Notes under the pieces: model-generated
Database searches by the model: none
What the model saw: only the letters and a program-made list of their open reading frames with translations
What the model was told of the DNA's origin: nothing
Source of the DNA: Sinomonas notoginsengisoli
GTDB taxonomy: Bacteria > Actinomycetota > Actinomycetes > Actinomycetales > Micrococcaceae
Length of the DNA stretch: 64,000 nt
Direction: 5' to 3'
NCBI RefSeq assembly: GCF_021554725.1
Contig: NZ_JAIZDP010000001.1
Location: 992,001-1,056,000, forward strand
Shown here: positions 17,239-19,985 of the stretch, one piece after another
Position numbering within the stretch: the stretch's first letter is position 1
How the letters are laid out: each line of letters begins with the position of its first letter
Translations under genes and position numbers: made by a program

Positions 17239-18057
17239 CTATGGGGCGCGCATGAACTCCTCGGCGGCGCGCACCTGCTCGTCGCTCGGGCGCATCCCCG
17301 TGTAGAGGACGAACTGCTCGAGCGCCTGGATGGTCATGACCTCGGCGCCCGAGATGACCGTCTTGCCGGCTGCACGGCCTGCCTCGACCAGCGGCGTGTC
17401 GGCTGGGAGTGCCACGACGTCGAAGACCACCCGCGCGGCGTCGACCGCTGCCTCCGGGAACGCCAGCGAGGCCTCCTCGGGGCCGCCCGCCATCCCAATC
17501 GGCGTGGCGTTCACGACCACGTCCGCCGTGGAGCCCCCCAGGTCGGGCTGCCAGGCGAACCCATACAGGTCCGCGAGGGCGTTGCCGGTCACCTCGTTCC
17601 GGGCCACGATCGTTACCCGTGTGAAGCCCGCGTCGCGGAAGGCGGCGGCGGTGGCCTTGGCCATGCCACCCGAGCCGCGCAGGAGGACCGACCACCCTGG
17701 ATCGATCCGTTCGCGGGAGATCAGCCGCGCGATGGCCGTGTAGTCCGTGTTGTAGGCCGTGAGGACGCCGGAGTCGTTGACCACGGTGTTCACCGAATCG
17801 ATGGCCGCGGCCGAGGGGTCCATGCGGTCAACCAGTGCAATCACGGCTTCCTTGTACGGCATCGAGACTGCGCAACCGCGGATGCCGAGTCCCCGGACGC
17901 CCGTGATCGCCTGCCCAAGGTCAGTCGGGGCAAACGCCTTGTAAATCCAGTTCAGGCCGAGGGCGTCGTAGAGGTAGTTGTGAAACTGCGTCCCGTTGTT
18001 GCTGGGCCGGCCCGAAAGCGAGATGCACAGCGTCATGTCTTTGTTCAGGATCGGCAC
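17239..18057 (-). CDS. AroE/shikimate 5-dehydrogenase-like protein
   Basis: A 272-aa member of the shikimate/quinate dehydrogenase family. The substrate-binding region has ISLSGRPSNNGTQFHN where AroE usually has S-x-SP...HN, and MPYKEAV supplies the catalytic lysine in place of the usual T-x-P-x-K. The Asp partner is in YNTDYTA (usually NTDxxG). The nucleotide fold follows with LLRGSGGMAKA and VVNATPIGM. The motif drift suggests a relative acting on a substrate other than shikimate. The GTG start at 18057 has TAGCCT 6 nt upstream; ATG 18036 is an alternative. Confidence 0.82.
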   Translation of the reverse strand: MPILNKDMTLCISLSGRPSNNGTQFHNYLYDALGLNWIYKAFAPTDLGQAITGVRGLGIRGCAVSMPYKEAVIALVDRMDPSAAAIDSVNTVVNDSGVLTAYNTDYTAIARLISRERIDPGWSVLLRGSGGMAKATAAAFRDAGFTRVTIVARNEVTGNALADLYGFAWQPDLGGSTADVVVNATPIGMAGGPEEASLAFPEAAVDAARVVFDVVALPADTPLVEAGRAAGKTVISGAEVMTIQALEQFVLYTGMRPSDEQVRAAEEFMRAP

Positions 18058-18093: not shown

Positions 18094-18216
18094 TCAGCCT
18101 TGGCGCGCCTTCATGCGCGGATTCTTCCTGTTGATCACGAACGCCTTCCCGCGGCGACGGACCACCTGCGCCCCTGCGGCCTTCTTGAGCGAACGCAGCG
18201 AATTGCGGACCTTCAT
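18094..18216 (-). CDS. rpmJ: 50S ribosomal protein L36, zinc-independent (type B) paralogue
   Basis: A 40-aa protein beginning [12 protein letters not shown] and ending [12 protein letters not shown]. It has the L36 core ([17 protein letters not shown]), but the cysteines and histidine that bind zinc in the housekeeping form are absent. This is the C-minus form used when zinc is scarce. An AAGGAG SD lies 4 nt before the ATG. A Zur-like palindrome sits 20 bp upstream of the start. A zinc-binding L36 gene would be expected in the main ribosomal protein cluster, outside this window. Confidence 0.93.
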
Positions 18217-18236
18217 GGTGCTCCTTTCCTCGATTC

Positions 18237-18253
18237 ATGAGAACCATTCTTAT
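18237..18253. promoter_or_regulatory. Candidate Zur operator
   Basis: ATGAGAA-N3-TTCTTAT is a near-perfect 7-3-7 inverted repeat resembling actinobacterial Zur boxes. It lies just upstream of the zinc-free L36 gene and between it and the divergent AidB-like gene, so it could control either. Confidence 0.6.
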
Positions 18254-18299
18254 CCAACGCCATCTGGCCCCCGATGATTCCCGGGTGTGCAATGGGACC

Positions 18300-19985
18300 A
18301 TGCACGCCAATCAGGCACCGCCCCGCACCGACGTCGACGAGTTCTCGGCCAACGCCGCGCTCGTCGACGGGATCCGGCGCCACGGGGCAACCTGGGCATC
18401 TGGCGAGCTCGCCGCGATCGGGCGCCTCGTTGGCTCCCGCCAGTTCGCCGAGAATGCGCGCCTCGCCAACGAGTGCCCGCCCGTGCTGAACGCACTGGAC
18501 CGCTGGGGCGAGAGCCTCGACGAAGTCAAGTACCACCCGGCGTACCACCACGTCATCGCGGATGCGGTCGCGCACGGCGCCCACACGTCCTCGTGGGCGG
18601 ACCCGAGGCCAGGGGCCCACGTGGCGAGGGCGGCCGCGTTCATGCTGTTCGCGCAGATCGAACCGGGCCACGCGTGCCCCATCTCGATGACGCACGCCGC
18701 CGTCCCCGCCCTGTCGCGGCAGCCCGACGTCGCCCGCGTGTGGCTGCCGCACCTCTACGGCGACGGCTACGAACCACGGCTCATACGCGCCGCGGACAAG
18801 CCCGGCGCGCTCGTGGGCATGGCCATGACCGAGCGGCAGGGAGGGTCAGACGTGCGGACCAGCACCACCGCCGCGCGCGCCCTCGGCGACGGCACGGCGC
18901 TCATCACCGGGGCCAAGTGGTTCTGCTCGGCTCCCATGAGCGACGCGTTCCTCGTGCTCGCCCAGGAGCCCGAGGGACTCTCATGCTTCCTCGTGCCACG
19001 CGTGCTGGAGGACGGCGCGCGTAACCCGTTCCGCCTCGTGCGGCTCAAGTCGAAGCTCGGGAACCGGGCCAACGCGTCCGCTGAGGTGGAATTCGAGGAC
19101 ACGCGCGGCTGGCGGCTCGGCGAGGCCGGGCGCGGGGTGCGGACCATCATCGACATGGTCCACGAGACCCGCCTCGACTGCATCCTCGGCACCGCGGCCG
19201 GAATGCGCCAGGCAGTCGCCGAGGCCGTGTGGCACGCGCGGCATCGGCGGGCCTTCGGGCGGGTCCTCGCGGACCAGCCCGCCATGGCCGGGGTCCTGGC
19301 GGACCTCGCGCTGGAGTACGAGGCCGCTCTGGCACTGGGGCTGCGGCTGGCCGCGGCGGACGACGTCGTGTGGGCGCCGCCGGTGCCACCGGCTACCGCC
19401 TCGGGGGACTCGCCGTCGCCCATCCCTGTCCAGGCAGGGTCGACGGGCGCCCGGCGGGAGCGTGCGTTCGGCAGGATCGCGACGGCGGTGGGCAAGTACT
19501 GGGTGTGCAAGCGCGGGCCCGCGCACGCCGCCGAAGCCCTCGAGTGCCTCGGCGGCAACGGGTACACCGAGGACTTCCCCCTCGCCATGCGCTACCGGGA
19601 GCAGCCGGTCATGGCCATCTGGGAAGGGTCCGGGAACGTGGTCGCACTCGACGTGCTGCGGGCCCTCGCCCGCGAGCCCGACTCCGCCGAGGCGCTCGCG
19701 GAGGAGCTCGAACGACATCGCGGCACCGACCCCGCCCTCGACGCCCACCTCGAACAGGCCCTGGCCCTCATGGCCGATGCCGCGCGCGAACCCGAGGAAG
19801 CACAGGCCTGGGCCCGACGGCTCGCGGAGGCACTGGCAGTCGCGCTGCAGGCGACCCTCCTGCTCGACGGGGATCCCGCCGTGGCAGAGGCCTTCATTGC
19901 CGCCCGGCTCGGGCCCGGACGCAGCCTCGGCTACGGGTGCCTGCCGGATTCCGCCCGTGTGGAAGAGATCCTTTCGCGGGCGTGA
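18300..19985 (+). CDS. AidB-like acyl-CoA dehydrogenase family protein
   Basis: A 561-aa flavoprotein from ATG 18300. It has the AidB-type features: the long N-terminal helical region with YHPAYHHV, the flavin-binding segments MTERQGGSDV and TGAKWFCSAPM, and a C-terminal domain containing CLGGNGYTEDF and WEGSGNV. AidB in Escherichia coli belongs to the alkylation response and binds DNA; whether this protein does so is unknown. No SD or clear -10 box precedes the start. A Zur-like palindrome lies about 50 bp upstream, between this gene and rpmJ. Confidence 0.88.
   Translation: MHANQAPPRTDVDEFSANAALVDGIRRHGATWASGELAAIGRLVGSRQFAENARLANECPPVLNALDRWGESLDEVKYHPAYHHVIADAVAHGAHTSSWADPRPGAHVARAAAFMLFAQIEPGHACPISMTHAAVPALSRQPDVARVWLPHLYGDGYEPRLIRAADKPGALVGMAMTERQGGSDVRTSTTAARALGDGTALITGAKWFCSAPMSDAFLVLAQEPEGLSCFLVPRVLEDGARNPFRLVRLKSKLGNRANASAEVEFEDTRGWRLGEAGRGVRTIIDMVHETRLDCILGTAAGMRQAVAEAVWHARHRRAFGRVLADQPAMAGVLADLALEYEAALALGLRLAAADDVVWAPPVPPATASGDSPSPIPVQAGSTGARRERAFGRIATAVGKYWVCKRGPAHAAEALECLGGNGYTEDFPLAMRYREQPVMAIWEGSGNVVALDVLRALAREPDSAEALAEELERHRGTDPALDAHLEQALALMADAAREPEEAQAWARRLAEALAVALQATLLLDGDPAVAEAFIAARLGPGRSLGYGCLPDSARVEEILSRA

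Follow-up and report, generated by a model that had tools for sequence, protein, structure and literature searches.

A Zur-type box between a zinc-free L36 gene and an aidB-like gene in Sinomonas: a probable operator of rpmJ2, with aidB a likely bystander

When a single palindrome lies between two divergent genes, which of them does it serve? The question arises in the window analysed here, a 64,000-nucleotide stretch of the genome of Sinomonas notoginsengisoli (3.59 Mb in 32 contigs). On its minus strand lies rpmJ2 (18094..18216), which encodes a zinc-free (C-minus, type B) ribosomal protein L36 of 40 aa; on the plus strand lies a gene for an AidB-like flavoprotein of 561 aa (18300..19985). 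A first-pass annotation, made from the letters of the sequence, placed both genes behind a Zur-like site and noted that the flavoprotein would be an unexpected Zur target. There is good reason to read the box at 18238-18252 as the Zur operator of rpmJ2 and aidB as most likely a bystander.

The zinc-free L36 gene and its palindrome

The 40-aa protein scores 59 bits against the Pfam family Ribosomal_L36 (cut-off 26.1) and 69.9 bits against the NCBIfam model for type B L36, just below its cut-off of 70. Its translation has neither Cys nor His, as expected from the first-pass description of an L36 without zinc ligands. The genome also encodes a second L36 (G000:C1:1075623-1075733), in which the zinc ligands C11, C14, C27 and H32 occupy their usual places, and the ligand-free protein is therefore accompanied by a zinc-ligand paralogue. 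A likely ribosome-binding site of rpmJ2, GGAAAGGAGC, can be read at 18220..18229 (minus strand), whereas its promoter is putative, no clear -10 having been established. Downstream and on the same strand follows an aroE-like shikimate dehydrogenase gene (17239..18057), which directly adjoins aidB in G006, a relative without rpmJ2.

The palindrome is the 17-mer ATGAGAACCATTCTTAT at 18237-18253, an imperfect palindrome in which 6 of the 7 arm positions pair. The first-pass annotation correctly placed it 20 bp from the L36 ATG (18216) and ahead of the divergent gene; the distance to the likely ATG of the latter, at 18300, is 47 bp. Within it lies the 15-bp, 7-1-7 core TGAGAACCATTCTTA (18238..18252, assigned to neither strand), which is the putative Zur-type box. 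Allowing up to 3 mismatches, 0.28 matches to the 17-mer are expected per shuffled window. The core scores 23.0 bits on a matrix built from 14 boxes outside the genus that accompany zinc-free L36 genes or the operons containing them; the next-best site in the window scores 5.0, and in 36 Mb of composition-matched random sequence a level of at least 23 was reached once. The 14 training boxes had themselves been selected for their likeness to an actinobacterial Zur consensus, and matrix and consensus are therefore not independent of each other. The box agrees in form with the Streptomyces coelicolor ChIP motif tGaNNatSatNNtCa and with the 21-bp actinobacterial motif taaTGaNAANNNTTNtCANta, both given in PMC5472717.

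Counterparts of the box accompany the gene in other genomes. A zinc-free L36 match occurs in 57 of 148 relatives, one in each, and 33 of these 57 loci were examined (30 among the matches listed and three further Sinomonas loci), of which 32 were parsed. A box scoring at least 10/12 lies within 60 bp of the L36 start in 16 of the 32. In 11 more, a box of at least 11/12 is found 1038-1281 bp away, ahead of the first gene of an operon. A box thus precedes either the zinc-free L36 gene or an operon-heading gene with a CobW_C domain at 27 of the 32 parsed loci, other genera included; shuffled controls reach either level in 2 of 1600 each. The remaining five loci (L059, L061, L062, L064, L087) have no box of at least 10/12.

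The CobW_C domain is present in all 11 operon-heading genes, the eleventh encoding P0006, and the heading gene ends at rpmJ2. Eight of the heading genes and P0006 were put to NCBIfam, and all nine match, far below its cut-off, the MRF model, which describes a GTPase recruiting a ribosome hibernation factor. Among the COG0523-like heads (L060, L063, L065, L068, L069, L075, L076, L078), the sub-cut-off MRF score exceeds that of ZigA where both models match.

Within Sinomonas, 13 of 15 genomes carry a zinc-free L36 gene, and in all 13 a box precedes the gene or its operon; rpmJ2 is accordingly a gene with a Zur-type box at its putative promoter that is conserved in relatives. The contexts of boxed rpmJ2 vary between several gene arrangements, the aidB-divergent one among them. 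In G001 (L203) a box lies between the zinc-free L36 gene and a divergent COG0523-like gene, and G008 (L202) and G011 (L201) share this layout on weaker COG0523-like matches (7.5e-4 and 3.5e-5, respectively). G007 (L177, L084) carries its zinc-free L36 gene in a cluster, with boxes, that also includes a ZnuA gene and a second Fur-family gene.

The regulator and other candidate sites

The genome contains two Fur-family genes. One of them (G000:C1:716614-716964) adjoins genes for an ABC-3 family permease, an ABC ATPase and ZnuA. The best solved relatives of its product are S. coelicolor Zur (3mwm, 2e-48) and Mycobacterium tuberculosis FurB (2o03, 2.9e-39), and in the alignment it retains the two CxxC motifs as well as the HHHH segment. 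Against all NCBIfam models that it matched, the protein scores below the cut-off, with 48.1 of 167 bits for Zur (PRK11639). The first-pass annotation had made its reading depend on a Zur homologue, and one is present, together with zinc uptake genes: it adjoins znuABC.

A search of the genome for the same kind of box near znuABC had also been proposed, and two related boxes, TGGGAATTGTTCCCA and TGCGAGCGGTTCTCA, with starts 37 bp apart, precede znuA. They score 9.7 and 11.3 in this genome, levels that random sequence reaches, and the znuA boxes of relatives range from 4.5 to 18.6, some reaching only 4.5-7.8. Due to these low scores, the argument for them is one of position and conservation. Fourteen genomes have a znuA match at 53% identity or above; 13 of them have both boxes, and G011 has one. 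In G007, where the znuA match is only 35%, the box scores 20.2. The mechanically called znuA frame begins within the first box, and in G012 the same frame is broken by a stop at codon 2, so that the true znuA start probably lies further down. A pattern search of the genome returned 10 sites, two at znuA and one in the window, which are the expected places; the pattern was shaped after the znuA palindrome seen by eye, and the result is therefore circular for znuA. The other seven sites appear, by eye, to overlap or adjoin coding sequence. A site at C1:718913 was set aside, since it falls within the start of the znuC frame. The best match of the genome to the Zur consensus, TAAGAATCATTTTCA at C3:63784 (L005), lies at a place where no clear gene was seen.

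With this regulator, Zur control of L36 is very probable, judged from gene content and conserved sites, and the proposed mechanism would be a simple one. When zinc is sufficient, zinc-loaded Zur would occupy the box, which lies at the expected place of the rpmJ2 promoter, 21 bp from the ATG, and would block RNA polymerase there. When zinc runs short, Zur would be released and the zinc-free L36 made, which could replace the zinc-binding L36 and so spare or free zinc.

The specificity of the box was assessed across the genus. Allowing at most 1 mismatch from TGAGAAYNRTTCTCA, 12 sites are found over the 15 Sinomonas genomes, and the reversed control gives 2. Four of the 12 are found at rpmJ2 or znu loci (the window, G004, G012:C2 and G007), and for the other eight no evident zinc gene was found within the 3 kb inspected, which means that the box sequence alone is no proof of a zinc target. 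Could the palindrome in the window then be the site of another Fur-family regulator, or a chance match? Such a regulator is at hand, as the other Fur-family gene adjoins a catalase gene, and the eight sites lend the idea some substance. However, a score reached once in 36 Mb of random sequence and the conservation of the box with rpmJ2 across genera make this reading highly improbable. The eight palindromes are at L172, L178, L174, L175, L169, L171, L176 and L179; L174 and L175 represent one place in two genomes, while L172 and L178 share an identical palindrome in differing surroundings.

The expectation that the box might recur at other zinc-free ribosomal genes did not hold on L168 (G000:C23), where the genes for L28, L33 and the only S14 of the genome sit together: no box was found there, the best score being 4.8. 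The L33 and S14 encoded at this locus are without Cys, and the locus perhaps represents a constitutive zinc-free set. A second ZnuA-like gene of the genome, L195 (G000:C12:200049-201002), has counterparts in L196 and L197 and carries TGAGATCAGTTATCA in its upstream region. ZnuA-like genes of G005 and G001 have similar palindromes, TGAGATNNATTATCA, upstream of them, and these sites are possibly another type of operator. At L019 (G000:C31:63348), ATA/TTA triplets recur in an AT-rich segment of the otherwise high-GC genome.

The aidB side of the box

The mechanically called aidB ORF opens inside the box, at 18237. The start is taken here as the ATG at 18300, which fits a conserved promoter spacing. 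The product (P0002) shares the arrangement into AidB_N and acyl-CoA dehydrogenase domains with Escherichia coli AidB (3djl) and the AidB-like protein 5ez3, although it stays below the cut-off of the NCBIfam equivalog model NF008594 (468.4 of 545 bits). Its best named match is from Sinomonas albida, with zero distance to G001 on the AidB tree.

Upstream of this start lies the element GGTGTGCAAT (18284..18293, plus strand), which includes a possible -10 (TGCAAT). The form GGTGT[GC][CG]AAT is conserved upstream of aidB in all 15 Sinomonas genomes, with or without the box. The gap between the element and the aidB ATG is 6 nt in 14 of the 15 genomes as measured by script, and also in G012 when taken to an in-frame ATG. 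An element so close to the ATG suggests a leaderless aidB transcript, with transcription presumably beginning at the start codon. A possible -35 (TCTGGC) is found at 18263..18268 on the plus strand, and is not conserved in G002, G003, G014 and G007. The box ends 10 nt before this -35 and 47 nt before the likely transcription start.

The association between box and aidB breaks down when genomes are compared. An aidB orthologue is present in all 15 Sinomonas genomes; nine have the box and rpmJ2, or its operon, beside it, and the remaining six lack the pair at this place, with a best score of at most 8/12. Among 80 named aidB homologues, a few of them with less than 400 bp of upstream sequence, no upstream box comparable to that of the window was found: the best score is 4.0, and the shuffled null has its 95% level at 2.9 and its 99% level at 7.6. 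The box is thus not conserved with aidB across species. On the AidB tree, built by a quick method, the nine boxed genomes form one group (SH-aLRT 88%), in which G012 branches first and the other eight are grouped (SH-aLRT 93%). The contrast between genomes with and without the box therefore counts as one change, not nine.

Zinc-loaded Zur could in principle act in two directions, repressing rpmJ2 and activating aidB from just upstream of its -35. There is a precedent in the zitB promoter of S. coelicolor, which Zur activates from a box placed 8 nt ahead of the -35 (PMC5472717). The 10-nt distance in the window resembles this arrangement, and the spacing between box and promoter element is 30-32 nt in eight of the nine boxed genomes, with 38 nt in G012. 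The two cases differ in that zitB encodes a zinc exporter, and in that the aidB element also occurs without the box. Its persistence in all six box-less genomes suggests that the element does not seem to need Zur. The aidB homologues point the same way, their best score lying under the 99% null level though over the 95% one, and so does the imperfect conservation of the -35. AidB is not known to be linked to zinc. A two-way switch, in which loss of a COG0523-like gene left behind an operator through which zinc-loaded Zur represses L36 and activates the flavoprotein, is thus very unlikely; if true, it would tie an enzyme of an alkylation-stress family to zinc sufficiency.

Could Zur, alternatively, repress both genes from the same box, with aidB going up in zinc starvation? 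A single box can serve the divergent genes cg0042/cg0043 in Corynebacterium glutamicum (PMC2823685). The C. glutamicum boxes, however, overlap the core promoters according to the same paper, whereas the present box lies upstream of the possible -35. As double repression would also have to contend with the lack of such a box at aidB elsewhere, both in the six Sinomonas genomes and among the named homologues, it is very unlikely, slightly more so than activation.

In literature searches, nothing relevant was found on Zur together with AidB; in the text of a study of M. smegmatis Zur (PMC7174638), the terms rpmJ, L36, divergent and acyl-CoA are absent; and among the titles listed for Sinomonas and zinc, none concerns gene regulation. 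The Zur reading of the first-pass annotation is well supported by sequence for L36, where the Zur homologue beside znuABC, the znuA boxes and the boxes of other genera favour it, and is not supported for aidB, since the box tracks the L36 gene both in the Sinomonas contrast and against the 80 homologues. The position of aidB beside the box is probably a coincidence of neighbourhood, and the gene would be driven by its own promoter element. An intergenic box common to two divergent genes is no evidence by itself that both are regulated.

Origin of the arrangement and known systems

The layout of the first-branching genome offers a clue to how rpmJ2 came to lie directly behind the box. In G012, aidB diverges from a box that is followed on its other side by a COG0523-like gene and rpmJ2, with aroE further on in the same direction. 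In the other eight boxed genomes the box is directly ahead of rpmJ2, at 21-22 bp in seven and at 53 bp in G004. Since the box heads a CobW_C-rpmJ2 operon in G012, the window looks like this operon minus its first gene. The genome holding the window gave no match in searches for cobW (PF02492), for P0006-like proteins and for CobW_C (PF07683). The PF02492 search would be uninformative alone, as this family also misses the COG0523-like proteins found in relatives, and for this reason the absence was retested with P0006 and PF07683. Only 3 of the 15 Sinomonas genomes contain a match to P0006. On these genome comparisons, the simplest and most likely account is that the ancestor of the eight lost the COG0523-like gene, which would make the window a probable case of an operon reduced to a single ribosomal-protein gene with its operator retained. 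The order may also have been the reverse, with the COG0523-like gene gained in G012.

Zur-controlled zinc-free ribosomal paralogues are described for M. tuberculosis and S. coelicolor in a review (PMC6103462), and RpmJ is listed as a predicted Zur target in some genomes in another source (PMC2823685). However, actinobacteria do not all place L36 under Zur, as rpmJ2 of S. coelicolor is reportedly controlled by SigR instead (PMC2374992). The window shares with the actinobacterial Zur paralogue systems a zinc-free paralogue, a 7-1-7 box, a Zur gene by zinc uptake genes and a zinc-ligand L36 encoded elsewhere. It differs from them in that rpmJ2 is the sole gene directly behind the box, and in that the box is also upstream of aidB. 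Compared with the boxed COG0523-like-rpmJ2 operons (L060, L063, L065, L068 and others, and G012), it has the same type of box and the same rpmJ2 without the COG0523-like gene, and with G012 it has the aidB neighbour in common. Sinomonas and several related genera thereby join the bacteria in which a zinc-free L36 is probably regulated by zinc.
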